Assembly: GCF_036346855.1 (NCBI RefSeq)
Contig: NZ_CP107841.1
Location: forward strand, 1,488,001-1,552,000
Direction of reading: 5' to 3'
DNA from: Streptomyces europaeiscabiei
GTDB taxonomy: Bacteria > Actinomycetota > Actinomycetes > Streptomycetales > Streptomycetaceae
DNA: 64,000 bases
Below the pieces are notes generated by a model. The model made no database searches. It was not told the origin of the DNA and saw only the letters and a program-made list of their open reading frames with translations. The first letter of the stretch is position 1; each line of letters opens with the position of its first letter. Below are positions 29,401-50,427 of this stretch, piece by piece. Both the position numbers and the translations under genes were made by a program.

Positions 29401-30185
29401 CGGGCGCACGGGACGACGCGGAGCTGGCCCCTGCCGAGCGCAAGCGGTTCATGGCGTTGAAGAAGGACGTACGGACCGTCGCCGCCGACCAGGTGCGGCG
29501 GCTGGAGTCGGCCATGGTGCAGGGCCGTTCGTGGTCGGCGGCCGAGTTCCGTGAGCTGTTCGTGGGGCATCCGCTGCTGGGGCATCTCGTCCGGCGGCTG
29601 GTGTGGCTGAGCGACACGGACGGCACGACGACCGCCTTCCGGGTGGCGGAGGACCGTACGTTCGCGGATGTCGAGGACAGCGCGTTCACCCTGCCCGACG
29701 CGGCGGCCGTACGGATCCCGCACCCGCTGCACCTGGCGGGCGAACTCGACGTCTGGGCGGAGCTGTTCGCGGACCACGGGATCCTCCAGCCGTTCCCGCA
29801 GCTGGAGCGGCGGGTGTTCGAGCTGAGTGCGGGGGACGCCGCCGGCCCGCTCCTGGAGCGCTTCGAGGGCCTCACGGTGACGACCGGCCGGCTCGTCGGT
29901 CTGGAGCGGCGCGGGTGGCGGCGCGGCCGGCCGCTGGACGCGGGTGTCGAGCGCTGGATCTCCAAGGAGCTCGCCCCGAACCGCTTCGCGGTGCTCACCC
30001 CGGACCGCGGCATCGCCGTCGGCTTCTTCGATCCCGCCGAGCAGCAGAAGGTGGAGCACATCTGGCTCGCCACCCGGCCGGGCGACTACTGGCCCAGTGA
30101 CACCCACAGCATCCGCTTCGACGAGATCGACCCGGTCGCGGTGTCCGAACTGCTGGCCGATCTGGCGGAGTTGACGGCCCCATGA
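26478..30185 (+). CDS. WGR-domain and DUF4132 protein
   Basis: 1235 residues from GTG 26478. Residues 1-65 are a WGR domain (MRRWEYVEGNSSKFWEAEAD, TVRYGRCGTEGRIQVKE), known from PARPs and bacterial conflict proteins to bind nucleic acid ends. Residues 66-150 are low-complexity with an Ala-Thr repeat. A long HEAT-like helical middle follows, then the C-terminal DUF4132 (GWRRGRPLDAGVERWISKEL; FDPAEQQKVEHIWLA). In many bacteria this protein opens an operon with a MoxR AAA+ ATPase, DUF5682, DUF5691 and VWA proteins, proposed as an NTP-dependent conflict or stress system. Here the stop overlaps the start of the MoxR gene by 4 bases but that gene is cut short. Confidence 0.88.
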   Translation: MRRWEYVEGNSSKFWEAEADGATVTVRYGRCGTEGRIQVKECASSEEAAEYLRKTVAAKERKGYREAGAAPVHAAAVEPAAADGGGAPTPIAGDDTTASASATATATATATATATATATATADGGSEMPVVDEDTFVLPAAWHRHLHPRRGGIRRRPAPPRKGAASEAEQRLRTGATWVRLYLDSPRSDVDLVRAAEAHLAGTADPLGAAVLAVASDMAWSGSVCADAWVEAHGPVFAARATVELFDIEAHCTQHGTRRFDPYVERVPNKPFAGQAERVRGVADRIRALLAAADEDTYRAVVAALGGMRSSARRRVVVSYLVPTETEWLDECAGGPEANRPRGNALRSMLFCSFDDPEQVRQLGGVADLSYGAWPMPTVATVAEGIGTAVAPLVAESLRGSYVESDTVRKVNSILVAIPSDEAFALLMGQLGDKRTQPFVTKAARRYPRRALRMLAEAVAAGGPNTDAVRSALLVHVSAHPDVAHEALASLSPEAAHAVEALLSPRDRVPDAPAASLPDLLTSPPWTRPREVVKVRTVTVPVAEDAPGIVWLPGERQEWADTPSRERDWASRSEWPDDPDALLDAVRSDRLGSMGIFLDKPEELVRPLLDEWTPTSLDSDATLKPIVARFGTDALGVVLRVAPKWPASLAPLLLPYVSVGAARLIAEWAVRVKSARGTARSWFRRHGEAAAPLLVPDALGKAGPARRHAQQALHTIMALHGEQVVRSAAERYGAEAVAGIGELLSADPLRTALPAKLPEPVEWAEPVLLPQILVRSGGALPAEATRHVVTMLAMSRPGEPYPGLAVVRELCAPESLAEFAWALFEQWRLAGMPSQESWALTALGLLGDDGTARRLTPLVRAWPGEGAHQRAVDGLGALAAIGTDVALMHLHGVAQRVKFKALKSRAQEKIAELAEALGLTGEQLADRLVPDFGLDARGTTVIDYGSRTFTVGFDEQLRPFVQDPGGGRRKDLPQPGARDDAELAPAERKRFMALKKDVRTVAADQVRRLESAMVQGRSWSAAEFRELFVGHPLLGHLVRRLVWLSDTDGTTTAFRVAEDRTFADVEDSAFTLPDAAAVRIPHPLHLAGELDVWAELFADHGILQPFPQLERRVFELSAGDAAGPLLERFEGLTVTTGRLVGLERRGWRRGRPLDAGVERWISKELAPNRFAVLTPDRGIAVGFFDPAEQQKVEHIWLATRPGDYWPSDTHSIRFDEIDPVAVSELLADLAELTAP
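26781..26840 (+). repeat. In-frame (GCTACG)10 hexamer repeat in the WGR-DUF4132 gene
   Basis: Ten perfect copies encode alternating Ala-Thr between the WGR domain and the helical body. As the unit is two codons, slippage would change linker length only. Confidence 0.9.
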
Positions 30186-30724: not shown

Positions 30725-31843
30725 ATGCAGATGCCTCGCCAGTTATCCCGACGGACGGTGGTCGCGGCCACCGCCGCAGGCCTCGTCGCCACCGTCGTGT
30801 CCCCCGCACGGGCCGCCGAAGCGCGGGCGGCCCGGTTCCACACGGTCGGCCGGGTCAGGAAGGCTGCCGACGGGACCGTGCAGTACAGCTGGCCCGGGAT
30901 CTCCTTCGAGGGGCGGTTCCACGGGACCGGCGTCGGGGTGGTCCTCGACGACTCCGACAACGACTACGACGTCCAGGTCGACGGGACGACCGTCGCCACC
31001 CTCGTCACCCCGGGCCGGACCGTCTCCTGGATCGACGGCCTCCCCGACGGCGGACACCGCGTGCGGGTCGTGAAGCGGACGGAGAGCCCGTGGGCGGCCG
31101 GCCGGTTCGGCGGTTTCGTCGCGGCTCCCGGTGGCGCGATTCTCGCGAGACCCCGGGCGCGGAGCAGGCAGATCGAGTTCATCGGCGACTCGTACACCGC
31201 CGGTTACGGCAATGTCTCCGGCACCCAGGACTGTTCCGGCAACGGCGGGGTCAACCGGAACAGCAACGCGGATCTCGCTTTCGGCGCACTCACCGCCCGG
31301 AAGCTGGACGCCGACCACCAGATCAACGCCTTCTCCGGCCGGGGAATGGTCCGCAACTACAACGGCGGCGATCCCGGAACCGACTTCCGGACGTACTACG
31401 ACCGGGCCCTGCTGAACGTCGAGGGCGATGTCTGGCGGAAGCCGGACAGCTGGCGTCCGCAGGTCGTCGTGGTCGGGCTCGGTATCAACGACTTCTCGAC
31501 GCCCCTCAACCCCGGGGAGCGCTGGAGCACGACGGCCGAGCTGGTCGCCGCCTACGAGAGCGCCTTTCACGGGTTCCTCGACAAGCTGCGCGCCCGGTAC
31601 GGGCGCAGGACGTTCCTCGTGGTCGCCGCGGCCCGCCTCTGGAACACCACCGCGCTCGCGGAGGCCACCCTGCGGATCGTCGAGGAGCGGGGCCGGCGGG
31701 GCGACGGCAGGGTCAGTCACTGGTACTACGACGACCCCGGCCTCGATCACCTGGGCTGCGACTGGCATCCCTCGCTCCACGACCACCGGATCATCTCCGG
31801 GCTGCTGGACGACCACCTCGCCGGGCTGTCCCTGCGCTGGTAG
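30725..31843 (+). CDS. Secreted CE2-type acetyl (xylan) esterase, SGNH fold
   Basis: 372 residues from ATG 30725. Tat-like signal SRRTVVAATAAGLVATVVSP ends near residue 31. Residues 35-130 are the CE2 jelly-roll domain (VQYSWPGISFEGRFHGTGVG); residues 145-370 are the SGNH hydrolase with nucleophile serine in EFIGDSYTAGYGN, an oxyanion glycine/asparagine in GLGINDFST and the histidine in LDHLGCDWHPS. CE2 enzymes remove acetyl groups from hemicellulose and some bind cellulose through the same cleft. The CebR box directly upstream supports a role in plant cell-wall use. Confidence 0.88.
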   Translation: MQMPRQLSRRTVVAATAAGLVATVVSPARAAEARAARFHTVGRVRKAADGTVQYSWPGISFEGRFHGTGVGVVLDDSDNDYDVQVDGTTVATLVTPGRTVSWIDGLPDGGHRVRVVKRTESPWAAGRFGGFVAAPGGAILARPRARSRQIEFIGDSYTAGYGNVSGTQDCSGNGGVNRNSNADLAFGALTARKLDADHQINAFSGRGMVRNYNGGDPGTDFRTYYDRALLNVEGDVWRKPDSWRPQVVVVGLGINDFSTPLNPGERWSTTAELVAAYESAFHGFLDKLRARYGRRTFLVVAAARLWNTTALAEATLRIVEERGRRGDGRVSHWYYDDPGLDHLGCDWHPSLHDHRIISGLLDDHLAGLSLRW

Positions 31844-35540: not shown

Positions 35541-37151
35541 GTGACACTAGAGGTGACGACATCCCGGGCGGGGCGGTTGGCGGAGCGGGCGGCCGGCCGT
35601 CTGCCCGACCCGGTCACTGAACGATCCGTCGACCGGACCGCCGACCGCGTCGCCGACCTGGAGGCCCGCCGGGTCCGGGCGGTCGCGCCGGCCGGACCCA
35701 GGAGACGTGGGGAGTACGGCGCCCGGGAGCGGATCGATCTGCTGCTGGACGCGGGTTCGTTCACGGAGACCGGCCTGTTCGTGCGGGCCCGCCCCACCGG
35801 GGAGGCCGCCGGGCGCCCGTACGGCGACGGGGTGGTCACCGGGCACGGCACCATCGACGGCCGGCCCGTGTGTGTCTTCGCCCAGGACTCCACGGTGTTC
35901 GGCGGCAGCATGGGCGAGGCCTTCGGTGAGAAGACCATCGCGCTGATGGACCTCGCCCTGAAGACGGGCTGTCCGGTCATCGGCCTCAACGACGGCGGCG
36001 GCGCCCGCATCCAGGAGGGCGTCACCTCGCTCGCCCTCTACGCCGAGCTGGTGCGCCGCAACGTGCGGGCGTCCGGGGTGATCCCGCAGATCTCGGTCGT
36101 CCTGGGCCCGTGCGCCGGCGGGGCCGCGTACTCGCCCGCCATCACCGACTTCACCGTGATGGTGGACGGCGCCTCGCACATGTTCGTCACCGGGCCCGAC
36201 GTCATCGAGGCGGTCACCGGCGAGCGCACCGGCGCCGAGGAACTGGGCGGCGCCCGCACCAGCAACACCGTCAACGGCAACGCCCACTTCCTCGCCGCCG
36301 ACGAGGTGGACGCCCTCGACACGGTGCGCGACCTGCTGTCGTACCTGCCCGCCAACAACCTGGAGCGGCCCCCGCAGTACGCGCCGGGGGCCGCGCCCGC
36401 CGGGCCGGGGCTCGACGCGGTCGTGCCGGACCGGCTCGGGCAGGCCTACGACATGCGGGACATCCTGCGCGCGGTCGTCGACGACGGCGAACTCCTGGAG
36501 ATCCAGGAGCTGTTCGCGCCGAACATCATCTGCGCGCTGGCCCTGGTCGAGGGCGCCGCGGTCGGCGTCGTCGCCAACCAGCCGCTGCACGCCGCCGGTG
36601 TCCTCGACATCGACGCCTCCGAGAAGGCCGCGCGGTTCGTACGGTTCTGCGACGCGTTCGGCATCCCGCTGCTGACCTTCGTCGACGTCCCCGGCTATCT
36701 CTCCGGCGTCCGCCAGGAGCAGGCCGGCATCATCCGGCGCGGCGCGAAACTCCTGTACGCGTACGCCGAGGCGACCGTCCCCAAGGTCACGGTGGTGGTG
36801 CGCAAGGCGTACGGCGGCGGATACGCGGTGATGGGCTCCAAACACCTGGGCGCCGACATCAACCTGGCCTGGCCCACCGCCCGGATCGCCGTCATGGGCG
36901 CCGAGGGCGCGGTGGGGGTCCTGCACCGCCGCGAACTCGCCGCCGCGGCCGACCCCGAGGCCCTGCGCGCCCGCCTCGTCACGGCGTACGAAAGCACGTA
37001 CGGCACCCCGTACCTCGCCGCCGAGCGCGGCTACGTCGACGCCGTCATCGCACCGCGCGACACCCGCGCCCACATCTGCCGCGCCCTACGAGCCCTGCGT
37101 GGCAAGCGCGCCCCGATGCCGGAACGCCGCCACGGCAACATCCCGCTCTGA
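35541..37151 (+). CDS. Acyl-CoA carboxylase beta (carboxyltransferase) subunit, AccD/PccB family
   Basis: 536 residues from GTG 35541 (GGAGG 6 bases upstream; product starts MTLEVTTSRAGRLAERAAGR). Carboxyltransferase hallmarks: GLNDGGGARIQEGVTSL, VVLGPCAGGAAYSPAITDF, the biotin/CoA pocket around FVDVPGYLSGVRQEQAGII and AYGGGYAVMGSKHLGADI. It moves a carboxyl group from biotin on a separate alpha subunit (not in this window) to an acyl-CoA. It opens the locus with the FadD32-like ligase and Pks13-like synthase, exactly the partner role AccD4 plays in mycolate synthesis; chain-length preference cannot be read by eye, so AccD4 orthology is inference. Confidence 0.9.
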   Translation: MTLEVTTSRAGRLAERAAGRLPDPVTERSVDRTADRVADLEARRVRAVAPAGPRRRGEYGARERIDLLLDAGSFTETGLFVRARPTGEAAGRPYGDGVVTGHGTIDGRPVCVFAQDSTVFGGSMGEAFGEKTIALMDLALKTGCPVIGLNDGGGARIQEGVTSLALYAELVRRNVRASGVIPQISVVLGPCAGGAAYSPAITDFTVMVDGASHMFVTGPDVIEAVTGERTGAEELGGARTSNTVNGNAHFLAADEVDALDTVRDLLSYLPANNLERPPQYAPGAAPAGPGLDAVVPDRLGQAYDMRDILRAVVDDGELLEIQELFAPNIICALALVEGAAVGVVANQPLHAAGVLDIDASEKAARFVRFCDAFGIPLLTFVDVPGYLSGVRQEQAGIIRRGAKLLYAYAEATVPKVTVVVRKAYGGGYAVMGSKHLGADINLAWPTARIAVMGAEGAVGVLHRRELAAAADPEALRARLVTAYESTYGTPYLAAERGYVDAVIAPRDTRAHICRALRALRGKRAPMPERRHGNIPL

Positions 37152-37224
37152 GCACGCCGACCCCACCGTGTCCCGTCACCGCTCTGACCGCAAGCCGTCC
37201 CCGCGACGTGAGGAGCCATGCCCG

Positions 37225-38973
37225 ATGGACAACCGCCGCCCCCCGCTCGCGCCCGTGTTCCGCAGTCTGCCGGAGTATGTGCGGCACTGGGCCGAGACCA
37301 CCCCCGACCGCCGGGCGTTCACCTTCGTCGACCATCCCGCGCCGCACTCGCGGGGCGTCCACCGCACCCTGACCTGGCGCAGGCTGGACCTGCGGATGCG
37401 GGCCGTGGCCGCCCGGCTCGCGGCGGAGGCCGAGCCCGGGGCGCGGGTCGCGGTGCTGTGCCCGCAGGGGACGGAGTACGTCACCGCCTTCCTCGGGGCG
37501 CTCGCCGCCGGCCTGGTCGCCGTACCGCTGTACCCGCCCGGTCTGCCCGGGCAGGGCGACCGGCTGTCGGCGGTCCTGACGGACGCGTGCCCGGCGGTCG
37601 TCGTCACTACGGGCCACACCCTCGCCGAGGTACGGGAGGTGTGCGAGGGCCGGGCGGTGAAGGTCGTAGCCGTGGACCACGTGCCGGACGCCGCCGCCGA
37701 CGACCGGGGGCAGTCCACGCCCGACGACACCGCCGTCGCCTACCTCCAGTACACCTCCGGCTCGACCCGCACCCCGGCGGGCGTGGAGATCACCCATGCC
37801 AACGTCGTCGCCAACGCCCGCCAGGCCCTGTCCGCCTACGGTGCCGACGCCCATCCGGTGACCTGTGTGGGCTGGCTGCCGCTGTACCACGACATGGGGC
37901 TCGTGCTGAGTGTCGCGGCGCCGGTGGTGCGGGGGCTGCTGTCGGTGCTCATGGACCCGGTGGCCTTCCTGCACGAGCCCGTGCGCTGGCTGCGGCTGCT
38001 GGCCGCGCACCCGCGCGCGCTGAGCGCGGCGCCCAACTTCGCCTACGACTACTGTGCTTCGACGGTCACCGAGGCGCAGAAGTCCGGGCTGCGGCTGGAC
38101 GGCGTCGCCGCGCTGATCAACGGCAGCGAGCCGGTCCGCCCCGGCACGGCCGACCGTTTCCACGCCGCGTTCGCCGCGCAGGGCCTCGTCCCGGAGACGC
38201 ACTGCCCGTCGTACGGGCTGGCCGAGGCGACCGTCTTCGTCAGTGCCGCCCGCCCCGGGGAGCAGCTGCGCGGGTTCGCGCTCGACCGGGACGCCCTGGC
38301 CGCCGGGAAGGCCCTGCCCGCGCGGCCCGACGATCCGAGGGCGGTGCTGCTGGCCGGCTGCGGCGCACCGGCCGGCCAGCGGGTGCGGATCGCCGACCCG
38401 GTGTCGCGGGCCGCCCTGTCCGAGGGGGAGGTCGGCGAGATCTGGGTGCAGGGCCCCAACGTGGGGCGGGGCTACCGGAACCAGGACCGGCAGACGCGGC
38501 GTGTCTTCGGCGCCGTACTCGCCGATGCGACGGCGGGTCCGGGCGAGTGGCTGCGGACCGGCGACCTGGGGACGGTCCTGGACGGGCAGTTGATCGTCAC
38601 CGGGCGGCTGAAGGACCTCATCGTCGTCGACGGGCGCAACCACTACCCGCAGGACGTGGAGGCCACGGCCCAGGACGCGCATCAGGCCGTACGGCGGGAC
38701 CGGCTCGCCGCGTTCGGTGTGCCGGGCGGCTCCGGGGAGCGGGTGGTCGTCGTCGCGGAGCACGCGCGGACCGTGCCGCTCGCCGACATCGACGTACCGG
38801 CCTTCGTGCGGACCGTACGCGCGGCCGTCTCCGCCCGGCACGGGCTGCGGCTCTCCGCCGTCGTCCTCGTCCCACCGGGCACGGTGCCCCGTACGTCCAG
38901 CGGGAAGGTCTCGCGGGCACTGACCCGTGAACGCTATCTGGCGGGTGCCTACGCGGTGGGGGGCGCGGAATGA
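37225..38973 (+). CDS. Fatty acyl-AMP ligase, FadD32-like (FAAL)
   Basis: 582 residues from ATG 37225, preceded by GAGGAG. Adenylation motifs: LQYTSGSTRTPAGVEITHAN, WLPLYHDMGLVLS, CPSYGLAEATVFV and TGDLG. The hinge region KDLIIVVDGRNHYPQDVEAT-type (seen: VVDGRNHYPQDVEATAQDAH) closely matches mycobacterial FadD32, which activates a long fatty acid as acyl-AMP and passes it to the N-terminal ACP of Pks13 rather than to CoA. The C-terminal lysine lies in PRTSSGKVSRAL. Its stop overlaps the Pks13-like start by 4 bases, so the two are made together. Cytoplasmic. Confidence 0.92.
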   Translation: MDNRRPPLAPVFRSLPEYVRHWAETTPDRRAFTFVDHPAPHSRGVHRTLTWRRLDLRMRAVAARLAAEAEPGARVAVLCPQGTEYVTAFLGALAAGLVAVPLYPPGLPGQGDRLSAVLTDACPAVVVTTGHTLAEVREVCEGRAVKVVAVDHVPDAAADDRGQSTPDDTAVAYLQYTSGSTRTPAGVEITHANVVANARQALSAYGADAHPVTCVGWLPLYHDMGLVLSVAAPVVRGLLSVLMDPVAFLHEPVRWLRLLAAHPRALSAAPNFAYDYCASTVTEAQKSGLRLDGVAALINGSEPVRPGTADRFHAAFAAQGLVPETHCPSYGLAEATVFVSAARPGEQLRGFALDRDALAAGKALPARPDDPRAVLLAGCGAPAGQRVRIADPVSRAALSEGEVGEIWVQGPNVGRGYRNQDRQTRRVFGAVLADATAGPGEWLRTGDLGTVLDGQLIVTGRLKDLIVVDGRNHYPQDVEATAQDAHQAVRRDRLAAFGVPGGSGERVVVVAEHARTVPLADIDVPAFVRTVRAAVSARHGLRLSAVVLVPPGTVPRTSSGKVSRALTRERYLAGAYAVGGAE

Positions 38974-41900
38974 GAGTAGTGCGGGACGACCGGGACGACC
39001 TGCGGCGGCCGGCCACCGGTGGTGAGGAGGGCACGGTGCGACGGCTGATCGCCGAGCAGGTGGCCGCCTGGAGCGGTGGGTCCGCCGAGGACGTGCCGAT
39101 GGACCGGCCGCTCGCGGATCTCGGGATGTCCTCGCGGGACGCGGTCGTCCTGGCCGGGGAGCTGTCCCGGGCGACCGGCCGTGAACTGCCGGCGACGCTG
39201 GTGTGGGAGGCGGCCACGGGGGACGCACTGGTGGCACGCCTGTGCCGTACGGCGGCGGACATCGCCCCGGTGGCGGCCCCGCTCCGTGAGGCACCCGCGC
39301 CCGGTGAGCCCGTCGCGGTCGTCGGGATCGGCTGCCGGCTGCCCGGGGGCGTGCACGGCCCGGCGGAGTACTGGCGGTCGCTCTGCGCGGGTGCCGACGC
39401 GATCCGGCGGGTCCCCGAGGACCGGTGGCGGGACTTCACGCCGTACCCGCCCGCCGACGCACTGCCGTACGGCGGCTACCTGGACGACATCGCCGGGTTC
39501 GACGCGGACTTCTTCCGCATCACCCCGCGCGAGGCGGCCGTCATGGACCCGCAGCAGCGGATCCTTCTGGAGGTCGTCCAGGAGGCCCTCGACCACGCCG
39601 CCGTCCCGGCCGCGTCCCTCGCGGGCAGCGCCACCGGTGTCTTCGTCGGCGTCTCCGCGCCCGAATACGGACAGCTCACCGGCGCCGACCCGGCCGCCGT
39701 CGACCCGTGGGCGCCTGCCGGCGGGGCGCTGAGCGTGGCGGCGGGCCGACTGGCGTACGTCCTGGACACGCGGGGGCCGAGCATGGCCGTCGACACCGCG
39801 TGTTCGTCGTCGCTGGTGGCCGTGCACCACGCGTGTGTCAGCCTGCGCACGGGCGAGAGCGATCTCGCGATCGCCGCCGGGGTCAACCTGCTGCTCTCCC
39901 CGGCCGTCACGGTCGCTTTCCGGCGGGCGGGCGCCCTCGCGCCGGACGGGCGGTGCAAGCCGTTCTCGGCGGCGGCCGACGGCATCGGCCGGGGCGAGGG
40001 CTGCGCGGCCGTGCTCCTGAAGCGGCTGTCCGACGCCGAGCGGGACGGCGACCGCGTCCTCGCCGTCGTCCGCGCCACCGCCGTCAACTCCGACGGCCGC
40101 TCCAACGGCCTCCTGGCACCCAACCCCGCCGCCCAGCAGGCCCTGCTGACCACCGCCTACGCGCGGGCCGGTCTCTCCCCCGCGCACATCGACCACGTCG
40201 AGGCGCACGGCACGGGCACCCCGCTGGGCGACCCGATCGAGGCGGGCGCGCTCGGCGCGGTGCTCGGGACGGGCCGTGACCCCGACCAGCCGCTGCTCCT
40301 CGGCTCCGTCAAGGGCAACCTGGGCCACCTGGAGTCCGCCGCGGGCATCGCCGGCCTGGTGAAGACGGTGCTCGCACTGCACCACGACCTGATTCCGCCC
40401 TCGCTGCACTGCGCCGAGGGCAGCGCCCTGAAGGACGACACACGGCTGCGGGTCGTGACGGAGGCCGAGCCGTGGCCCCGGTACGGCGGTACGGCCACCG
40501 CCGGGGTCTCCGGGTTCGGGTTCGGCGGCACCAACGCCCACGCGGTCCTGGAGGAATGGCGGCCCGGCGCCCTGCTTCCGCCCCCGGCCGAGGAACCCCC
40601 GGCCCGCCTCCACCTCCTGTCCGACACCGACGCCACCCGCGTCCGCGACACCGCCGACCGGCTGGCGGACTGGCTCGCCACGCCCGAGGGCAGCGCCGCG
40701 CACCCCGCCGACGTGGCGCGCACGCTCGCCGGACGCGCGGGGAGAGGTTCCGTGCGGGCCGCGATCGTGGCGGGAAGCCGCGCCGAACTGGCGGACGGAC
40801 TCGACGCGTTGGCCGACGGGCGACCCCACGCGCGGGTCATGGTGGGCGACCGGGATCTCGCAGGACGCGGCCCGGTGTGGGTCTTCTCCGGGTACGGCAG
40901 CCAGTGGTCCGGCATGGGACGCCGGCTGCTCGCCGAGGAACCCGCCTTCGCCGCGGCCGTGGAGAAGCTCGACGCGCAACTGGCCCCCGAGTGCGGGCTC
41001 TCCCTCTACGACCACCTGGCCACGGGTGGCGGCCTCGACCGTCTGGAGGTCGCCCAACCCGTCCTCTTCGGACTCCAGTTGGCGCTGGCCGAGCTGTGGC
41101 GGGCACACGGGGTCGAGCCCGCCGCCGTCATCGGCCACTCCCTGGGCGAGGTGGCGGCCGCGGTGTGCGCGGGCGCGCTGGAGGTGTCGGACGCGGCCCG
41201 GGTCGTCGCGCTACGGGCCCGGCTGCTCAGCGGGCTGCGGGGCGGGGCGATGGCGGTGGTGGACCTCGCGGACGACGAACTCGCCCTTCTGGAAAGGGAC
41301 TTCCCGGGCGTGCATGTCGCCGTGCACTCCTCGCCCGGCCAGAAGGTGGTCACCGGGGAGGAGGAGGCGGTGGCCCGGCTGGTGCGCCGACTGGAGGAGG
41401 AGGGGCGGGCCGCGCGTGCGATGCGCGTGGTCGGGGCGGGCCACTCCCCCCAAGTGGATCCGCTTCTGCCGGAGTTGACGGCAGGGCTCGCGGACATCCG
41501 GGCCGGGCTCCCCCAGGTCCCCGTCTACTCCACCGTGCTGGACGACCCGCGTGGCGACTGTGTGTTCGACGCCGCGCACTGGGCCGCCAACCTGCGGCGA
41601 CCCGTGCGCCTCGACCGGGCCGTCGCCGCTGCCGCCGCCGACGGCCACACCGCGTTCGTCGAACTCTCCCCCCACCCGGTCCTGACCCTCGCGATCACGG
41701 ACACCGCCCCCGGAACGCTCGCCCTCGGCACCCTCCACCGCGACGCCGACACCCCTGCCGACTTCCTCACCCAGGTGGGCACCCTGCACACCGCCGGGTA
41801 CCGGCTCCCCCTGCCGCCGGGCCGCGTCATCGACCTGCCCGGGCCACGCTGGCGGCATGTGCGGCATTGGTGGACGGACGGGAGGCCGGGGGTCACGGCG

Positions 41901-43466
41901 GCGGGCTGGGCGACGGCGGGCGGGGGGGAGAGGCACCACGAGCCCGGCGGGATCCACGTGAGGACCGGGGGCCCCGAACCGGGCCGGGTCACCGTGACGA
42001 CCGAAGGCCGCGTGACGCCCGACGGCCACGAACCAGGCCGGGTCACCATGACGCCCGACGGCCACGAACCAGGCCGGGTCACCATGACGACCGACGGCCG
42101 CGTGGCGCCCGGACGGCACATGCCGCAGGCGGACCGTCCGGCGGCAGGAGGCCACGTCGCGGAAAGGGGCCACGTCGTGGCAGGGGGCCCCGGACCGGAT
42201 GGCAGCCGGCAACCGGACGGGCGTCGTGGACCGGATGGCAGCTGCGGGCCACAAGGGCGGCGCGTCGCGGAAGACATATCCCTCTCCGTCTCCGCCCGCC
42301 TCTGTCACCACATCGCCGCCGTCACCGGGCATTCCCCGACCCGCATCACCCCGGCCACCGCCTTCGCCGAGCTGGGCCTGGACTCCCTGATGGCGGTGCG
42401 CATCCGCGCCGCGCTGCAACGTGAGTTCAGCATCGAACTCCCCCTGCGCGACCTGCTGGGCGCCGCCACGGTCGAGGACGCGGCGGCCCACATCATGCGG
42501 GCGTTGCCGGGGGAGACGGCGCCGCCCCGAGACGTCGAGCGGCCGGTGTCACCGACCGGGCCCGAGGGGGCGTCGCGTGAGAACGCCCCGCCCCTCCCCC
42601 TTCACACCGCCGACTCCCACCCCTGGCTTCGGCGCTTCGACACGCCCGGCCCCCACCCCTCACTCCAGCCCTCGAACACCCCCGGCCCCCACCCCCCGCT
42701 CTTCCTCGTCCACGCCGCCGGCGGCACCACCGACGTGTACCGGTCCCTCGTGGAACGGCTCGGCGGGGAGCGGCCGGTGTACGGGCTGGAGCGGGTCGAG
42801 GAGGCCCGTACGGTCGTGGAGAAGGCGCGTCGTTACGCCGAGACGGTTGCCGCCGTGCACCCCGACGGGCCCTGCCTGTTGGGCGGTTGGTCGTTCGGCG
42901 GCTTCGTCGCCCAGGAGGTGGCGCGGCAGCTCACGGCCGCCGGGCGGGACGTACGGCTGGTGGTGCTCCTGGATTCCGTACGGCCGCTCCCCCACCCCGA
43001 GGGCACGCCGGCCGAGCGGATCCGCGCCCACTTCACCGGCTTCGCCCGCCATGCCGCCGACACCTACGGAGCCGAACTGGCACTGCCGTACGACGAGTTG
43101 GCCGCGACGGAGGACGACGGCGAGCGCGTCGACACGGTGCTGCGGGCCCTGCGGGAGGCGGCCGACGTGCCGCAGGCAGCCCTCGATCACCAGCGGGCCT
43201 CCTATCTGGACCTGCGGATCGGCGAGGCACACCGGCCGGGCTGCCACGACGGGCGGGTGGTGCTGTACCGGGCCACCGAGCCGGCCCCGCACACCGTGCG
43301 CGACCCGGCGTACGAGCGGGACGACGAGGCGCTCGGGTGGGACGAGGTGTGCCCGCGTCTGACCGTCGTCCGGGTCACGGGCCACCATCTGTCGCTGCTC
43401 GACCCGCCGCACATCGACGAGATCGCCGCCCATCTGCGGCGGGAGCTCGCCGGGGAGACCCGCTGA
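38970..43466 (+). CDS. Pks13-like condensing enzyme, ACP-KS-AT-ACP-TE
   Basis: 1498 residues. Domains in order: N-terminal ACP (about 22-92) with phosphopantetheine serine S55 in LGMSSRDAV; KS (113-540) with C278 in DTACSSS, H413 in EAHGTGTPLGDP and H453 in KGNLGHLES; AT (630-930) with S724 in GHSLGEV and R749, the carboxylate-binding arginine 25 residues on; a Gly/Pro-rich linker (960-1095) with a 12-residue repeat; second ACP (1105-1180) with S1139 in LGLDSL; TE (1240-1495) with S1308 in GWSFGG. No KR, DH or ER. This unusual order, the SSRDAV N-ACP and the FAAL/AccD neighbours are those of mycobacterial Pks13, which condenses two fatty acyl chains to a beta-keto product and transfers it through the TE. 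Confidence 0.93.
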   Translation: MRVVRDDRDDLRRPATGGEEGTVRRLIAEQVAAWSGGSAEDVPMDRPLADLGMSSRDAVVLAGELSRATGRELPATLVWEAATGDALVARLCRTAADIAPVAAPLREAPAPGEPVAVVGIGCRLPGGVHGPAEYWRSLCAGADAIRRVPEDRWRDFTPYPPADALPYGGYLDDIAGFDADFFRITPREAAVMDPQQRILLEVVQEALDHAAVPAASLAGSATGVFVGVSAPEYGQLTGADPAAVDPWAPAGGALSVAAGRLAYVLDTRGPSMAVDTACSSSLVAVHHACVSLRTGESDLAIAAGVNLLLSPAVTVAFRRAGALAPDGRCKPFSAAADGIGRGEGCAAVLLKRLSDAERDGDRVLAVVRATAVNSDGRSNGLLAPNPAAQQALLTTAYARAGLSPAHIDHVEAHGTGTPLGDPIEAGALGAVLGTGRDPDQPLLLGSVKGNLGHLESAAGIAGLVKTVLALHHDLIPPSLHCAEGSALKDDTRLRVVTEAEPWPRYGGTATAGVSGFGFGGTNAHAVLEEWRPGALLPPPAEEPPARLHLLSDTDATRVRDTADRLADWLATPEGSAAHPADVARTLAGRAGRGSVRAAIVAGSRAELADGLDALADGRPHARVMVGDRDLAGRGPVWVFSGYGSQWSGMGRRLLAEEPAFAAAVEKLDAQLAPECGLSLYDHLATGGGLDRLEVAQPVLFGLQLALAELWRAHGVEPAAVIGHSLGEVAAAVCAGALEVSDAARVVALRARLLSGLRGGAMAVVDLADDELALLERDFPGVHVAVHSSPGQKVVTGEEEAVARLVRRLEEEGRAARAMRVVGAGHSPQVDPLLPELTAGLADIRAGLPQVPVYSTVLDDPRGDCVFDAAHWAANLRRPVRLDRAVAAAAADGHTAFVELSPHPVLTLAITDTAPGTLALGTLHRDADTPADFLTQVGTLHTAGYRLPLPPGRVIDLPGPRWRHVRHWWTDGRPGVTAAGWATAGGGERHHEPGGIHVRTGGPEPGRVTVTTEGRVTPDGHEPGRVTMTPDGHEPGRVTMTTDGRVAPGRHMPQADRPAAGGHVAERGHVVAGGPGPDGSRQPDGRRGPDGSCGPQGRRVAEDISLSVSARLCHHIAAVTGHSPTRITPATAFAELGLDSLMAVRIRAALQREFSIELPLRDLLGAATVEDAAAHIMRALPGETAPPRDVERPVSPTGPEGASRENAPPLPLHTADSHPWLRRFDTPGPHPSLQPSNTPGPHPPLFLVHAAGGTTDVYRSLVERLGGERPVYGLERVEEARTVVEKARRYAETVAAVHPDGPCLLGGWSFGGFVAQEVARQLTAAGRDVRLVVLLDSVRPLPHPEGTPAERIRAHFTGFARHAADTYGAELALPYDELAATEDDGERVDTVLRALREAADVPQAALDHQRASYLDLRIGEAHRPGCHDGRVVLYRATEPAPHTVRDPAYERDDEALGWDEVCPRLTVVRVTGHHLSLLDPPHIDEIAAHLRRELAGETR
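42018..42089 (+). repeat. 36-bp perfect direct repeat in the AT-ACP linker of the Pks13-like gene
   Basis: Two adjacent copies encode PDGHEPGRVTMT; degenerate copies flank them. In-frame expansion of an interdomain linker. Confidence 0.85.
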
Positions 43467-43488: not shown

Positions 43489-44613
43489 GTGCCCGACCAC
43501 ACCGACCGTCACACCGACCGTACCGACCACAACGACCTCACTGCCCCCGCCGACCACACCGACCTCACCGACCGCCTTGGCCGTACCACCGGAGTGTCCC
43601 GACGCTCCGTCACCAGGGCGGCCGCCACCACCGCCGTGGCCGCCCTCTTCGGCGCCGCGACCACCGGCACGGCCGGGGCAACCACCCGCCGGACCACCTC
43701 CAGCCGGACCACCAGCCGCGCCGGCGCAGGCCGGGCCGCCGCCGCAGCCACCACCCCGACCATCCCCACCGCCCGGTCCGTCACCCGCCTCGGCCCCCGT
43801 ACCGTCGACGTCTCCCTCCCCTCCGCCGCCCTGGGCCGGAACGCCACGGTCCGGCTGATCCTCCCCTCCTCGTTCGACGCGCGGCCCGCCCGGACGTACC
43901 CCGTGCTGTATCTGCTCCACGGCGCCCACGACGACTACACGTCATGGACCCGGGAGACGGACATCGAGGCGTTCACGGCGGGCCGGGAGCTGATCGTGGC
44001 GATGCCGGACGCGGGCCCGACCGGCATCCCCACCGCCTGGCGGGGCGGCCCGGACTACGAGACGTTCCAGGTGGGCGAGGTCCCGGCGCTGCTCGCCCGC
44101 GACTACCGGGCGTCCGGGGTCCGGGCGGTCGCCGGGGTCTCCACCGGCGGCTACGGGGCGATGGCGCACGCGGCACGTCACCCGGGGACGTTCAGGGCGG
44201 CGGCCTCGTACAGCGGCATCCTCGACACGACGGCACCCGGGGTGCCGACCCTGATGGACGCCATCGTGGCCCGCGAGAACCTGGCGCCCCTGTCACTGTG
44301 GGGCAACCCGATCCTGAACCTGCTCACCTGGCGGGACTTCAACCCGCGCTCCCGGGCGGCGGGGCTGCGCGGCACCTCCCTGTACGTGTCGAGCGGCAGC
44401 GGAGTTGTCGGCGGCATCGGCGACTGGCTTCCCGAGGCGCTGGAGAGCGTGCTGTGGCCGTCCGCCCACGCGTTCACGGACACGCTAGCCCTGTTGCGGG
44501 TCCCGGTGACCACACACTTCTACGCCGGCGGAGGGCACGGCTGGGCCTACTGGAAGCGGGAGTTCGCGGCGTCGTGGCCGGTGCTCGCCGGTGCGCTGGG
44601 GGTGCCGGCGTGA
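43489..44613 (+). CDS. Secreted antigen-85/esterase D family acyltransferase
   Basis: 374 residues from GTG 43489, 22 bases after the Pks13-like gene (GAGGAGAG upstream). A Tat signal (SRRSVTRAAATTAVAALFGA) follows a Thr/Asp-rich N-terminus and is followed by a Ser/Thr/Arg linker. The alpha/beta hydrolase domain begins near residue 100 (RTYPVLYLLHGAHDDYTSWT); nucleophile S218 in AGVSTGGYGAMAHA; histidine in GGGHGWAYWKREF. This is the PF00756 family that includes the Ag85 mycolyltransferases FbpA-C and FbpD. Coupling to the Pks13-like gene supports transfer of its lipid to a cell-surface acceptor, but a plain esterase activity cannot be excluded. Confidence 0.85.
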   Translation: MPDHTDRHTDRTDHNDLTAPADHTDLTDRLGRTTGVSRRSVTRAAATTAVAALFGAATTGTAGATTRRTTSSRTTSRAGAGRAAAAATTPTIPTARSVTRLGPRTVDVSLPSAALGRNATVRLILPSSFDARPARTYPVLYLLHGAHDDYTSWTRETDIEAFTAGRELIVAMPDAGPTGIPTAWRGGPDYETFQVGEVPALLARDYRASGVRAVAGVSTGGYGAMAHAARHPGTFRAAASYSGILDTTAPGVPTLMDAIVARENLAPLSLWGNPILNLLTWRDFNPRSRAAGLRGTSLYVSSGSGVVGGIGDWLPEALESVLWPSAHAFTDTLALLRVPVTTHFYAGGGHGWAYWKREFAASWPVLAGALGVPA

Positions 44614-44735
44614 GGCCGGTGCCGTCGGGGCACGGAACGGAGCGCAGGGGACGTCCGTCCAACCCAGGACTGACCCCTCGCCCCACGGGCACCGGCCCGC
44701 GGGTGAGCCGCTTCCGGGTGAAAGGAGGGTCCGCC

Positions 44736-45968
44736 TTGGCTGCCCCCACCCCGCCGCACGGTGTACCGGACGGCCCCGACGCCGCCCCGGTACCGCCCGA
44801 ACTGGCCAAACTGCTGCGCGACCAGTTGGAGGAGGTCGCCGACCAGGTGGAGGAGGAGGTGTGCAGACAGGTCCCGGAATACGCCTCCCGGTCGGTTGAC
44901 GGAGCGAGCCGCGCACTGCTCAGATCGGGGGTCGTGCAGGCGCTCACCCTGTTCGTCGACCACATCGCCGATCCACGCGGCCGGGGAGACTCGATCACCG
45001 CGATCTACCACGAGCTGGGGCGTGGCGAGGCGCTGGAGGGCCACAGCCTCGAAACGCTGCAGTCCGCGCTGCGGGTCGGGGGGCTGCACGCCTGGCGGCT
45101 GCTGGGCCGCACGACGGAGGAACTCGGGTTGGACTCCTCGGTCATGGCCGGGCTGGGTGAACTGGCGTTCCGGACGGTGCACGAGGTGGCCGAAGCCGCG
45201 GCGGCGGGGTACGCGGAGGGCCGGCTGCGCAGCACGGACGAGCTGGAACGGCGCCGGGGGCGGCTGCTCGCCCTGTTGCTGGGCGAAAGGCCGGTGTTGC
45301 CGGAGGCGGTGCGTGACCTGGCGCACGGCGCCCAGTGGTCCGTGCCGACGCACGTCGCGGTCGTCGTCCTCGCGGCCTCGCCCGACCGGCGGGAGGAGCG
45401 GCCGTTGGCCGCCGCCGGGGCGCTGGTGGATATGGAGTCCCGGCCACCACGGATGCTCGTGCCCGACCCGGACGGCTCGGGCGGCTTCGGCGGCCGGGCG
45501 TTCACGCTCGCGCTGCGGGGGCGGCCGGCGGCGATCGGGCCTTCGGTTCCGCTCACGGAGGCCGCCAGTTCGCTGCGCTGGGCCACCCGTGCGCTCGGGC
45601 TGATGGGGCGCGGCATCCTGCCCCGGCAGGGCGTGGTGCGCTGCGCCGACCATCTGTCGACGCTGCTGCTGCACAGCGACGAACCGATGCTCGCCCAGCT
45701 CCGGACACAAGTGCTGGCCCCGCTGGACACGGTCGCGGAGGGGCCGCGCGGCCGGCTCGCCGAAACCCTCCTGGCGTGGCTGCTCGGCGGCAGCAACGTG
45801 CCCGAGGTCGCCGCCCGCCTCCACATCCACCCGCAGACGGTCCGCTACCGCCTGCGCCAGCTGGAGAAGCTCTTCGGCGACGCCCTGCACGACCCCGGCG
45901 CGCGTCTGGACCTCATCCTCGCCCTGCGCGCGGAGGCATTGCGGGACGATGACACGTTCACCTCATAA
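44736..45968 (+). CDS. PucR/FasR-type transcriptional regulator
   Basis: 410 residues from TTG 44736, placed 6 bases after AAAGGAGGG; GTG 44703 is an alternative. The C-terminal helix-turn-helix (PEVAARLHIHPQTVRYRLRQ LEKLFG) followed by DPGARLDLILALRAE is the PucR/CdaR type. The N-terminal helical part (LRDQLEEVADQVEEEVCRQV) and middle domain match FasR-like regulators that control fatty acid synthesis in Streptomyces. In this locus it would be a lipid-responsive controller; its target sites are not known. Confidence 0.85.
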   Translation: MAAPTPPHGVPDGPDAAPVPPELAKLLRDQLEEVADQVEEEVCRQVPEYASRSVDGASRALLRSGVVQALTLFVDHIADPRGRGDSITAIYHELGRGEALEGHSLETLQSALRVGGLHAWRLLGRTTEELGLDSSVMAGLGELAFRTVHEVAEAAAAGYAEGRLRSTDELERRRGRLLALLLGERPVLPEAVRDLAHGAQWSVPTHVAVVVLAASPDRREERPLAAAGALVDMESRPPRMLVPDPDGSGGFGGRAFTLALRGRPAAIGPSVPLTEAASSLRWATRALGLMGRGILPRQGVVRCADHLSTLLLHSDEPMLAQLRTQVLAPLDTVAEGPRGRLAETLLAWLLGGSNVPEVAARLHIHPQTVRYRLRQLEKLFGDALHDPGARLDLILALRAEALRDDDTFTS

Positions 45969-46119: not shown

Positions 46120-46761
46120 ATGCGTATCCGCTTGTGCCTCGCCGCCCTCTCGCTGGCCGGCGGGGCCGGACTGGCCACCGTCTCGGCACCCACGGCCACG
46201 GCCGCGGCCTGCACGGACATCGACGTCGTCGCGGCTCGCGGCACGTTCGAGCCGGGCACGCTCGGCTTCATCGTCGGCGACCCCGTGTATTCCGCGCTGC
46301 AGAAGAAAATCGCGGGCAAATCCCTGTCCAGCTACAAGGTGAACTACCCCGCGGACCTTTCTCTCACCTCGGCCGCACAGGGCAACACGGATCTGGTGAA
46401 CCATGTCAGGAGCCAGGCCGCCTCCTGTCCGAACCAGCGTTTCATTCTCGTCGGCTATTCACAGGGCGCGAACGTCGTCGACAACTCCATCGGCATCAGC
46501 AGTGCCGGCGCGGTGGTCGGCAGCCCCATCGTGGCCACCATCCCCGCCGCGCTCGAACCCCGGGTCTTTGCGGTGCTGCTGTTCGGCAACCCCATCCGGG
46601 CCATCGGCAAGAGCGTCACCGGCACCTATCAGAGCCGCACCATCGACTTCTGCGCGGCCGGTGACCCCGTCTGCGAGAACGGCGGCGGGGACGTGGGCGC
46701 CCACCTCGGCTACCGCGCGAACGCCGATGCGGCGGCTGCCTTCGCCGCGACCAAGGTCTGA
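46120..46761 (+). CDS. Secreted cutinase-family hydrolase
   Basis: 213 residues from ATG 46120 (AAAGGA upstream). Signal peptide ends near residue 29 (TATAAAC). Cutinase features: CTDIDVVAARGTFEPGTLG, the GYSQG nucleophile S114, D182 in AAGDPVCENGGGD and H195 in GAHLGY, with four cysteines in the usual pairs. Family members cleave cutin or polyester, but mycobacterial Culp6 next to fadD32-pks13 acts as phospholipase/thioesterase on envelope lipids. The same neighbourhood here supports a lipid role; plant cutin degradation is the alternative. Confidence 0.9.
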   Translation: MRIRLCLAALSLAGGAGLATVSAPTATAAACTDIDVVAARGTFEPGTLGFIVGDPVYSALQKKIAGKSLSSYKVNYPADLSLTSAAQGNTDLVNHVRSQAASCPNQRFILVGYSQGANVVDNSIGISSAGAVVGSPIVATIPAALEPRVFAVLLFGNPIRAIGKSVTGTYQSRTIDFCAAGDPVCENGGGDVGAHLGYRANADAAAAFAATKV

Positions 46762-46829: not shown

Positions 46830-48560
46830 CTACTCGGGGTCCCGCGCGAACCCGGTCAGGCTCGTGGAGACCGGCTCGGGACGGCCGTTGTTCTGGGTGG
46901 GCGCGGCGGTCAGTACGTCCAGGTGCTGGTAGCCGTCGGCGACCACGGGGTCGAGATCGGCCGGGACCCGGCCCGCCAGCAGCCCGTCGCCCGCGAGCAC
47001 GGTGAGCGTCGGGTTGGCGGTGAGCCCCGCCGGGTGGACGACGAGCCGCTTCACCTGGGGTGACGTGGCCAGTTGGAGGTCGGTGACCAGCTTGGTCGGG
47101 AAATACTGCTCGGTGAAGTCCAGCGGCTGCTGGGCCATGCTGCGGGCCAGCTCCTGGATGTCGGTGACCTCCTTGCCCGCGTCGGTGAACGGGGTCCCGT
47201 CGGCCGACCGGTACCCGGGGTCGTCGGCATCGCCCACGCGGTCGTAGTTCCGCCAGGTGTAGAGCGGGCCGCCCGGCCGGTCGGGGATGGCCTTGTACTC
47301 ACTGCCGAACAGCGCCGGTTGCTCCTCGCCCCCGTTGGCGACGGGGAAGTTCTTGTCGACGACCGGCCCGCCATCGAAGAAGCCCACGCTGCTCTGCAGA
47401 AACGCAAGCGGTACGGAGTGGTCGTCCATCAGCGCGCCGAGGATCGCCTCGTTGGTGAGCCGGAAGTCCCTCACCGCCGGTGAGCCGGACAGGAAGGTGG
47501 CAGTGTCCTCGGAGAACAGGAAGCGGTTGCTGACCTCGATGTTGGTGTTGCGGGGCAGATGGTCCGGCAGGGTGGCCTCGCCGTCCGGGTCCTGCAGCGC
47601 GCCCAGGCCGGCGATGGCCAGCAGAGTCATCATCTCGGGGTTGAGGAGCACCGGCGCGGACAGCGAGCGCGGCAGCAGTCCGCTGTCGAGCCCGGCCTGC
47701 ACGGCGCCGTGACCGAGGCCCACGTCGGGCAGGTTGGTGTCGTCCGGGATGCTGCCGCTCAGATCGGCGAGCGAGGTGGAGACGGTGGTGTCGAGGGCGA
47801 AGTGGCCGGCGCACTGGTTGTACCCGGCGTCCGCCGTGGTGGACCGGTCGCCGTCGAAGTCGGCGGTCGCGAAGTACCCGGTGATGACACCGCCCAGGGA
47901 GTGCCCGCCGCACAGCACCTTCTCCTTGCGCACCCGCTGGTCGGGCAGCTCGGCGGTGAGCAGGTCGTACTGGTCGCGGACGGTTCGCTCGATGCCGAGC
48001 CTCGCCATCCAGCCCAGGTCCGCGTTGCCGACGAACCCGTCGAAGGTGCGGCCCGCGACCTGCTTGTCACGGTAGTAGTAGTCGACGGCCGTGTGCTGGT
48101 CGCCGGAGGCCACCCCGGTGCGGTCCTCCAGGCAGTTGGAGCGCCGGTCCAGGGCCCAGAACTCGATGTGCCGGCCCTGTGCGGCGGCGCGGGCGACGGT
48201 GTTGCGGGCAACGCTGTCGAAGGCTCCGGCGCCTTCGAGGATGCCCGGCTGGGCGACGAGGATCCGGTCGGCGTCGGCCGAGGCCGCCGGCCCGTCGGCG
48301 GACCGGTAGCGCAGGTACGACAGCCAGTCGCACGCCGCCGGCCGCGCCCCGAAGGACGCCGGCAGTGGCGCCCTCACCCGCACCACCGTCTCGGTCACCC
48401 CGCCGACCGGGCTCGTCGACGCCACGGCGGTCTCGGTCCGCGCCTCCCCGCCCCGGGCGTCCGGGGCGGCCCCGGCCAGCGCCCCGACGGTCAGCAGCAC
48501 CGCCGGCGCGACACCTCTCAGCGCCCTGAGGGTCTTCCCTTTCCTGCGACTCGTGTTCAT
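46830..48560 (-). CDS. Secreted alpha/beta hydrolase (lipase-like)
   Basis: 576 residues from ATG 48560 (MNTSRRKGKTLRALRGVAPA); signal peptide to about residue 38 (LAGAAPDARG). The serine elbow is KVLCGGHSLGGVITGYFA. RPAACDWLSYLRYRSADG and LDRRSNCLEDRTGVASGDQH are conserved in a family of large actinomycete secreted hydrolases without assigned activity. The C-terminal histidine is probably in VADGYQHLDVLTAAPTQNN. Together with the cutinase across the terminator it makes a small cluster of secreted esterases. Confidence 0.78.
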   Translation of the reverse strand: MNTSRRKGKTLRALRGVAPAVLLTVGALAGAAPDARGGEARTETAVASTSPVGGVTETVVRVRAPLPASFGARPAACDWLSYLRYRSADGPAASADADRILVAQPGILEGAGAFDSVARNTVARAAAQGRHIEFWALDRRSNCLEDRTGVASGDQHTAVDYYYRDKQVAGRTFDGFVGNADLGWMARLGIERTVRDQYDLLTAELPDQRVRKEKVLCGGHSLGGVITGYFATADFDGDRSTTADAGYNQCAGHFALDTTVSTSLADLSGSIPDDTNLPDVGLGHGAVQAGLDSGLLPRSLSAPVLLNPEMMTLLAIAGLGALQDPDGEATLPDHLPRNTNIEVSNRFLFSEDTATFLSGSPAVRDFRLTNEAILGALMDDHSVPLAFLQSSVGFFDGGPVVDKNFPVANGGEEQPALFGSEYKAIPDRPGGPLYTWRNYDRVGDADDPGYRSADGTPFTDAGKEVTDIQELARSMAQQPLDFTEQYFPTKLVTDLQLATSPQVKRLVVHPAGLTANPTLTVLAGDGLLAGRVPADLDPVVADGYQHLDVLTAAPTQNNGRPEPVSTSLTGFARDPE

Positions 48561-48670
48561 GTGGGGACGGTAGGACCGCGACAACGGCCCCACCGCCCCA
48601 TGCTCACAACAACGCAGCTACCGTCGGCACCTTTGTCACCAGGCTCCAACTCACTGTTCCACAGCCATGG

Positions 48671-49331: not shown

Positions 49332-50324
49332 TCAGGCACCGATCCTTCCGGTGCCTGCCCCGGCCCGTACGAGGGCCGGGACGTTCGCGGCGGGGTCCAG
49401 CGTGTAGGAGTAGTAGGTGCGCGGCTCGGTCACCGTGCCGTTGGTCTCGCAGGTGCCGGACCCTGCGAAGTGGTTGTTCCGCTGGACCAGCCGGCCCGGC
49501 CCGGAGGCGTCGTAACCACTCGCGGAGTAGCACGGGTTGGGGACCCCCTCGAAGTGGTTGCCCTCGACCACGACGCCCGCGTTCATGGTCGAGGCGACGC
49601 CGTAGACGGCGTTCCCCTTGTAGTAGTTGTTGTAGACGTGCACCGGTTCGCCGAAGCGGACCCGAGGGTGCCGTTGCCGTGAGCCGTCGAAGAAGTTGTG
49701 GTGGATCGAGACCTTCAACTTCCCCGCGTCCTGGCTGCCGTTGCCGTCGGAGTGGCCGAGCAGCATGCTCTTGTCGGTCTTGTTGAACCAGTTCCAGGAC
49801 ACGGTGACGTACTCGGCGCCGCGCACGACGTCGACGGCCCCGTCGAGGGGCGCCACGAACTCGTTGTGGTCGATCCAGATGTGGTGGGACCCCTGGCCGA
49901 CGTTGACGGCGTCGTCCTCGGCGCCCGTGAACCTGATGTTCCGCACGATGACGTTGTACGAGCGGTAGAAGTCCAGCCCGCCGCCGTTGACGACGGCCGA
50001 GGAGCCGACGCCGACGATCGTCTTGTGGGGCCGGACGCCCTGCTTGCTGGTGATGTCGACGGTGCCCTGCACCCGGATGACGAGCGGGCCCACCGTGTCG
50101 ATGTACTCCAGGAACTGCTCGGTGGTGGTGGCGGTCACGGTCGCGCCACCCGCTCCCCCGGTGGTGCCGTTCTGCCCGAGCGCGTCGACGGCGGCGAAAC
50201 CGGTGGGGGACGTCTCCGCCCGGGGTGCCGCTTCCGTGCCGGCGACGGTATCCGCCTCGACGGGCGCGGTCGCGCCGAGCAGCAGGGCGAGCGTGAGCGC
50301 GGGGACTGTACGTAACGACCTCAT
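49332..50324 (-). CDS. Secreted pectate lyase, PL1
   Basis: 330 residues from ATG 50324 (MRSLRTVPALTLALLLGATA); signal ends about residue 25. The parallel beta-helix shows PL1 motifs: VNVGQGSHHIWIDHNEFVAP with calcium-binding aspartates, VDVVRGAEYVTVSWNWFNKT, and the catalytic arginine in RQRHPRVRFGEPVHVYNNYY. It cleaves polygalacturonate by calcium-dependent beta-elimination. Divergent from the GH30 galactanase with a shared palindrome between, so both probably respond to pectin fragments. Confidence 0.92.
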   Translation of the reverse strand: MRSLRTVPALTLALLLGATAPVEADTVAGTEAAPRAETSPTGFAAVDALGQNGTTGGAGGATVTATTTEQFLEYIDTVGPLVIRVQGTVDITSKQGVRPHKTIVGVGSSAVVNGGGLDFYRSYNVIVRNIRFTGAEDDAVNVGQGSHHIWIDHNEFVAPLDGAVDVVRGAEYVTVSWNWFNKTDKSMLLGHSDGNGSQDAGKLKVSIHHNFFDGSRQRHPRVRFGEPVHVYNNYYKGNAVYGVASTMNAGVVVEGNHFEGVPNPCYSASGYDASGPGRLVQRNNHFAGSGTCETNGTVTEPRTYYSYTLDPAANVPALVRAGAGTGRIGA

Positions 50325-50415
50325 GTGGTCTCTCCCGGGACGAGTGGGGGACGTTCCTGGGCCGTGCCGATCGGTCGTGCGAATCCGTCGTGCGAATCCA
50401 TGCGCACAAGGACTA

Positions 50416-50427
50416 GAAAGCGCTTTC
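50416..50427. promoter_or_regulatory. LacI-type operator between the pectate lyase and the galactanase
   Basis: GAAAGCGCTTTC, a perfect 12-bp palindrome with the central CG typical of LacI-family repressor sites, 92 bases upstream of the lyase and 78 upstream of the galactanase. Different from the CebR box, so another repressor is expected. Confidence 0.6.

Follow-up and report, generated by a model that had tools for sequence, protein, structure and literature searches.

A Pks13-type gene block in Streptomyces europaeiscabiei with a predicted mycolate-like lipid product

The 10.95-Mb genome of Streptomyces europaeiscabiei carries, within positions 1,488,001-1,552,000 of NZ_CP107841.1 (the window, i.e. 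the whole 64,000-nucleotide stretch that was analysed; its own numbering is used below), a plus-strand gene run that encodes a carboxyltransferase (CT), a fatty acyl-AMP ligase (FAAL), a Pks13-type polyketide synthase (PKS) and a mycoloyltransferase homologue (EST). The PKS is built from acyl carrier protein (ACP), ketosynthase (KS), acyltransferase (AT) and thioesterase (TE) domains. Open reading frames (ORFs) and Pfam matches confirmed the first three genes and their coordinates as given by an earlier reading made from the letters alone (the sequence-only reading). That reading delimited the locus as 35541-43466, which places the genes inside it correctly but ends too early, since the operon-like run extends past the PKS to the EST, then a PucR-type regulator and then a cutinase. 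CT and FAAL are separated by 73 bases, FAAL and PKS overlap by four bases (ATGA), and the EST begins after a gap of 22 bases. No linked reductase or transporter was recognised in Pfam-type domain scans of the window proteins. The features of the run are as follows.

35541-37151, plus strand: CT (PF01039, 600.7 bits; in a clade with AccD4, support 96/92)
37225-38973, plus strand: FAAL (AMP-binding domain and DIP2-like C-terminal domain; NCBIfam FAAL models)
38970-43466, plus strand: Pks13-type synthase of 1498 amino acids (aa), ACP-KS-AT-ACP-TE (Pfam domains)
39024-39254, plus strand, boundaries approximate: N-terminal ACP with SSRDAV and Ser55 (Pfam and alignment)
39300-40604, plus strand, boundaries approximate: KS domain with Cys278, His413 and His453 (Pfam and alignment)
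40860-41849, plus strand, boundaries approximate: AT domain with Ser724 and the motif GAGH, of which His825 is the last residue (Pfam and alignment)
42270-42524, plus strand, boundaries approximate: C-terminal ACP with Ser1139 (Pfam and alignment)
42663-43463, plus strand: TE (top solved match, the Pks13 TE)
43489-44613, plus strand: EST, predicted to be secreted (PF00756; triad Ser218-Glu319-His350; N-terminus of twin-arginine type)
44703-45968, plus strand: PucR-type helix-turn-helix regulator (domain match; start codon guessed, ORF open from 43944)
46120-46761, plus strand: cutinase, predicted to be secreted (PF01083; conserved neighbour)

Judged by sequence, the locus has counterparts of all five kinds of gene in AccD4-Pks13-FadD32-cutinase-Ag85, the cluster by which mycobacteria join two fatty acids to form mycolic acid and fix it on the cell exterior, and its product is predicted to be a mycolate-like lipid. 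In Mycobacterium tuberculosis, the region Rv3799c-Rv3804c encodes AccD4, Pks13, FadD32, the cutinase Rv3802, Ag85D and Ag85A (PMC2625445).

Pfam recognised two PP-binding domains, a KS, an AT and a TE in the PKS, and no ketoreductase (KR), dehydratase (DH) or enoyl reductase (ER), in agreement with the sequence-only reading. The order ACP-KS-AT-ACP-TE, with both ACP serines, is shared with Pks13, as are the SSRDAV motif of the first ACP, the kinship of the KS, AT and TE domains and an AT motif of the form GA[GS]H. The active-site residues proved invariant in 121 of 121 aligned proteins (the window PKS and the 120 best listed of 7961 hits), namely Ser55 of the N-terminal ACP, Cys278, His413 and His453 of the KS, Ser724 and His825 of the AT, Ser1139 of the C-terminal ACP, and Ser1308, Asp1335 and His1472 of the TE. 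For the TE, the Pks13 TE was the best solved match with 146.6 bits, followed by a non-Pks13 TE with 73.9. The TE of Pks13 moves its product onto trehalose (PMC11649247).

Trees were built with 9 to 14 reference Pks13 from one family (f4, taken as Mycobacteriales), all above the curated Pks13 cut-off, to which modular PKSs (from the S. europaeiscabiei genome and from others) and further FAAL-linked synthases were added. The KS rows were reduced from 217 to 82 (by coverage, identity and locus), then to 75 (seven duplicates, fragments or outliers removed) and to 58 (seven long-branch and ten redundant rows removed). The rows kept elsewhere were 47 of 137 for FAAL, 51 of 123 for CT, 58 of 124 for EST, 73 of 136 for AT, and 56 for KS and AT combined. 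The KS tree, named beforehand as a possible refutation of the sequence-only reading, did not refute it and set the FAAL-linked synthases and nine Pks13 (33 rows) apart from 25 modular or other rows, with support of 100/98. An inner group (97/93) held the window PKS, its Streptomyces relatives, the Amycolatopsis synthase L259 and Pks13. The outer group was also found in a quick 75-row tree with the long branches kept (SH-aLRT 90), and the AT tree gave the same separation from modular PKSs (100/95). With KS and AT combined the outer split reached 100/99, and Pks13 fell outside a mixed group at 89/81. A single subclade of all non-reducing synthases including Pks13 was favoured by KS alone and not by KS and AT together: forcing it on the combined data cost 10.4 log units (approximately unbiased test, p 0.038), or 3.8 (p 0.159) when L259 was left out. 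The kinship of the window PKS with Pks13 can be regarded as firm on these phylogenies, and the exact branching inside the clade as not firm.

By Pfam, the synthases of the window, L125, L139 and L259 and the Pks13 of L136 have neither KR nor DH, L104, L108, L142 and L258 have both, and in L140 a KR sits on the next ORF. Pks13 is described as having a pseudo-DH and dysfunctional KR remnants (PMC11649247). A vestigial DH*/KR* region of this kind is absent between the AT and the C-terminal ACP of the window PKS, where a partly repetitive linker of about 165 residues lies between the Pfam hits; Pks13 ORFs measure 1752-1888 aa against 1498 here, which leaves no room for it. The DH/KR synthases and the Pks13 remnants would both be accounted for by descent from a reducing ancestor, with domain loss on one or more occasions. 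The linker (41990-42260) contains the repeats HEPGRVTMT, DGR and PDG. Most of the listed relatives are shorter than the window PKS, with lengths around 1300-1340 aa.

The FAAL was placed in one group of 36 of the 47 rows (92/82) that contained the other locus-linked FAALs and FadD32, while two other FAALs of one mycobacterial genome and a FAAL embedded in a nonribosomal peptide synthetase (NRPS) of the S. europaeiscabiei genome fell outside. A third FAAL of that mycobacterial genome (L216) stood beside FadD32. The FAAL tree, the second test named beforehand, did not refute the sequence-only reading: the window FAAL shares a broad clade with FadD32, away from the NRPS-embedded FAAL, with moderate support, and FadD32 and L216 form a separate branch inside it. 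The FadD32-like hinge noted in the sequence-only reading is indeed encoded (GRNHYPQDVEATAQ), and identity to FadD32 is 40-41%.

The curated family models weigh against a straightforward Pks13/FadD32 assignment. The PKS scored 1185.4 bits with the Pks13 equivalog NF040607, under its cut-off of 2100, although this was the top-scoring model, and the FAAL scored 506.7 bits with the FadD32 model NF038339 (cut-off 975) and 554.7 bits with a generic FAAL model. By curated score, both proteins are relatives of Pks13 and FadD32 and not members. The proposed Pks13-FadD32-AccD type is supported by the trees, where the CT lies in the AccD4 clade and the PKS with Pks13, within the limit set by the curated scores.

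A search of 84,980 species genomes for short peptide patterns taken exactly from the query gave 73 loci: 61 close Streptomyces loci, two Streptomyces loci at 52% identity (L100 and L125), nine from Amycolatopsis/Herbihabitans (Amycolatopsis-type) and one unrelated. L100, L125 and the Paracoccus locus L127 (25% identity over one KS stretch) were left out of the 61, which, with exact patterns, are a lower bound and not a census. A scan of 150 Streptomyces genomes with the Pks13 model, three candidates being scored per genome, was uninformative on prevalence, both matches in the genome of the window being modular PKSs and not the window PKS. The order CT-FAAL-PKS-EST was identical in all 51 Streptomyces loci with the four genes; the ten other contigs stop inside the block. 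The EST was found in 56 of the 61 (the contig stops before it in five) and in 9/9 Amycolatopsis-type loci, the cutinase in 55 of the 61 (six end early) and in 7/9, and the FAAL in 8/9 Amycolatopsis-type loci, the ninth (L124) being cut off. Amycolatopsis-type loci read FAAL-PKS-CT-PF00756, and those in which a cutinase was found have it some 1.3 kb further along, on the opposite strand. This FAAL-PKS-CT order is that of fadD32-pks13-accD4 in true Pks13 loci. AccD4 follows pks13 in Mycobacteriales loci, whereas the window CT is the first gene of its run. Among the matches listed (120 of 7961), the record closest to the window PKS is from S. europaeiscabiei itself (99% identity); on a contig of this species (L095), CT and FAAL match at 99% and 98%.

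The surroundings of the block are variable, the five window genes upstream of CT each occurring in at most 7/61 Streptomyces loci. A giant modular type I PKS region lies upstream (C1:1338000-1459400; the longest open frame in the KS search has 8155 codons), and 21 of the 39 KS matches of the genome fall at C1:1338-1455 kb, so the block might supply that cluster with an unusual starter or extender. We consider this very improbable: the locus begins at about C1:1523.5 kb, some 64 kb past L269, the last frame of a modular PKS that was found, the block occurs in 61 Streptomyces loci with differing flanks, and the window PKS has its own TE.

As regards the CT, bit scores first suggested a PccB-like enzyme, the best solved matches being of PccB type, but the tree overturned this. 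The window CT grouped with the Amycolatopsis-type CTs, AccD4 and two paralogues of one AccD4 genome (96/92), apart from PccB/AccD5. Identity to AccD4 is about 54% at best. At the position that we take to correspond to the specificity residue Asp422 of PccB, Ala was present in 29/29 clade rows (9/9 AccD4), while the seven nearest other rows had Asp (six) or Cys (one); the pattern was absent in 15 rows. The AT motif was GAGH in 59/59 window-type and 9/9 Amycolatopsis-type rows, and GASH (10) or GAGH (4) in 14 Pks13. Four of the 59 window-type rows were flagged as lacking CT, presumably the window, its CT copy having been dropped as a duplicate, and the cut-off loci L065, L089 and L109. Ten related FAAL-linked loci without CT in stretches of 12-24 kb (the L137 contig has only 12.2 kb) had AAGH (4), VAGH (3), GGAH (2) or GAGH (1); the association of motif with CT is a pattern among rows related by descent and not a test statistic. 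L142 and L143, from one genus outside Streptomyces, are FAAL-PKS-mycoloyltransferase-homologue loci with GGAH. Three loci of this kind occur in Amycolatopsis vancoresmycina (G338; L258, L259 and L261, the last being L101): a CT is linked only at L101/L261, with none in the 20-kb stretches analysed at L258 and L259, and L259 is non-reducing while L258 has DH and KR.

These data bear on the main rival explanation, in which the FAAL-loaded chain is extended with methylmalonyl-CoA and the resulting alpha-methyl or short alpha-alkyl beta-oxo acyl group is esterified to glucose by the secreted acyltransferase, as in macrodiolide glycolipids of the glucolypsin, fattiviracin and cycloviracin type; the DH-KR synthase loci would then give hydroxy forms. 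Glucolypsin is a dimer of acylglucose whose acyl chains carry 2-methyl and 3-hydroxy groups; its producers are a Streptomyces and a Nocardia, and fattiviracin and cycloviracin come from Streptomyces and Kibdelosporangium, respectively (PMC4365757). Like the predicted window product, these are actinobacterial acyl-sugar esters, and the acyl chains of glucolypsin are alpha-branched and beta-hydroxylated; they differ in that the structures given there have a methyl or no alpha branch, plus hydroxyls (PMC4365757). Among the matches listed, no paper on the genes of these macrodiolides was found. Besides the occurrence of such compounds in Streptomyces, Nocardia and Kibdelosporangium, this explanation draws on the sister loci with DH and KR and a mycoloyltransferase homologue (L142, L258, and L140 with its separate KR) and on the high score of the CT against PccB, a methylmalonyl-making enzyme. 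It is nevertheless unlikely. The GAGH motif occurs in Pks13, unlike the HAFH (4), YASH (1) and YGSH (1) motifs of six modular ATs of the same genome; the linked CT belongs to the AccD4 clade and has Ala where PccB has Asp; methylmalonyl-CoA should need no linked CT, since two almost identical CTs of PccB type are encoded elsewhere in the genome; and the window synthase has no KR.

The best solved sequence matches of the EST and its nearest fold are mycoloyltransferases (Ag85, PS1/MytA). Its Ser218-Glu319-His350 triad is in register with these enzymes, and it has an HxWxYW stretch and a signal-like N-terminus. Ser-Glu-His is presumably the mycoloyltransferase triad, which fits the S124A, E228Q and H260Q mutant entries of Ag85C. 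In the EST tree of 58 rows two halves were separated at 100/99, with the EST branch apart, and just one distant generic esterase was included. Pfam found no LGFP repeats in the EST; the PS1-like protein of L133 has them. The window cutinase scored 21.8 bits with the Culp6 model (cut-off 570), which indicates a different subfamily. In the three Pks13 loci inspected, the PF01083 gene adjoins fadD32 (L129) or lies one gene away (L133, L134); two of the three first cutinase candidates there were luciferase-like, and the cutinase was the next gene.

Another explanation is that a free alpha-alkyl beta-keto acid is released and either decarboxylates, giving a long-chain ketone, or cyclises to a beta-lactone or pyrone, the EST and cutinase being ordinary secreted lipid hydrolases that are neighbours by chance. 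In its favour, PF00756 and the cutinases are broad families, genes for plant-polymer degradation are found in the vicinity, and the scans recognised no linked reductase or transporter. Set against the 22-base gap between PKS and EST, the retention of the EST in 56/61 Streptomyces (the rest being contigs that end earlier) and 9/9 Amycolatopsis-type loci, and its best solved relatives being mycoloyltransferases, this explanation appears improbable. The nearby genes are a CE2-type esterase at one flank and, at the other, a pectate lyase and a GH30-like protein with lectin domains (30725-31843; 49332-53705); the pectate lyase and CE2 genes recur in 4/61 and 7/61 relatives.

Taken together, the CT clade, the AT motif, the TE and the downstream genes point in the same direction as the Pks13-type reading. 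With a probability of roughly 0.6, this Pks13-type locus condenses a pair of fatty acyl chains to give an alpha-alkyl beta-keto acyl product, likely moved to an outside acceptor by the EST. Gene content, order, conservation, phylogeny and motifs were observed directly, whereas every reaction, secretion, chain lengths, the acceptor and any reduction in trans are inferred. The FAAL would activate a fatty acid as acyl-AMP and load it onto Ser55 of the N-terminal ACP, from which the chain would pass to Cys278 of the KS. The CT, working with biotin-carboxylase subunits whose genes would lie at another site, would carboxylate a second acyl-CoA, which the AT, with its Pks13-like GAGH motif, would load onto Ser1139 of the C-terminal ACP, and the KS would form the Claisen product. 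Because KR and DH are missing, the chain would leave as a beta-keto acyl group. The TE, being of Pks13 type, would either pass this group to a sugar or set it free, the EST, as a PS1/Ag85 homologue, would trans-esterify it outside the cell, and the cutinase may trim or recycle it. The most likely product is an alpha-alkyl beta-keto acyl ester. This locus and the Pks13 loci have in common that genes of the FAAL, CT, cutinase and mycoloyltransferase types are linked. Since the nested set comprises loci that have a linked CT and loci that lack one, the extender choice of the AT is directly testable.

Two further proteins of the window were considered. The first is conserved beside the block in Streptomyces:

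46830-48593, minus strand: 587-aa protein with a GGHSLGG motif and an N-terminal signal-like stretch

It occurs in 49/61 Streptomyces and 0/9 Amycolatopsis-type loci and is 80-90% identical in five aligned relatives. It had no Pfam or NCBIfam match, and its AlphaFold model was unusable (mean predicted local distance difference test score 31.5). It is a candidate for a new secreted lipase family. The second (26478-30185, plus strand) has 1235 aa with WGR and DUF4132 domains, to which the domains assign no function.

Mycolic acids are the mark of one bacterial order and a drug target, and Streptomyces are not known to make them or similar lipids. Among the matches listed in the open-access literature, which leaves most subscription journals uncovered, no report of a Streptomyces locus of Pks13 or mycoloyltransferase type was found. 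We put at even odds the broader proposal that this condensation-and-transfer set, found in many Streptomyces and in Amycolatopsis relatives, makes alpha-alkyl beta-keto acyl esters on the exterior of hyphae or spores, so that mycolate-type assembly would extend beyond the mycolic-acid bacteria. If true, Pks13 would belong, as a single branch, to a larger family of actinobacterial synthases in which some members retain the DH and KR that Pks13 has as remnants. A parallel Streptomyces system would show the origin of the pathway and serve as a harmless model for its enzymes, and it would predict an unseen class of surface lipids in antibiotic-producing soil bacteria. Mycolic-acid bacteria reportedly induce pigment production in Streptomyces lividans, an ability that a pks13 mutant of Corynebacterium glutamicum lacks (PMC12159101); the present locus bears on this induction in that some Streptomyces may own related lipids.

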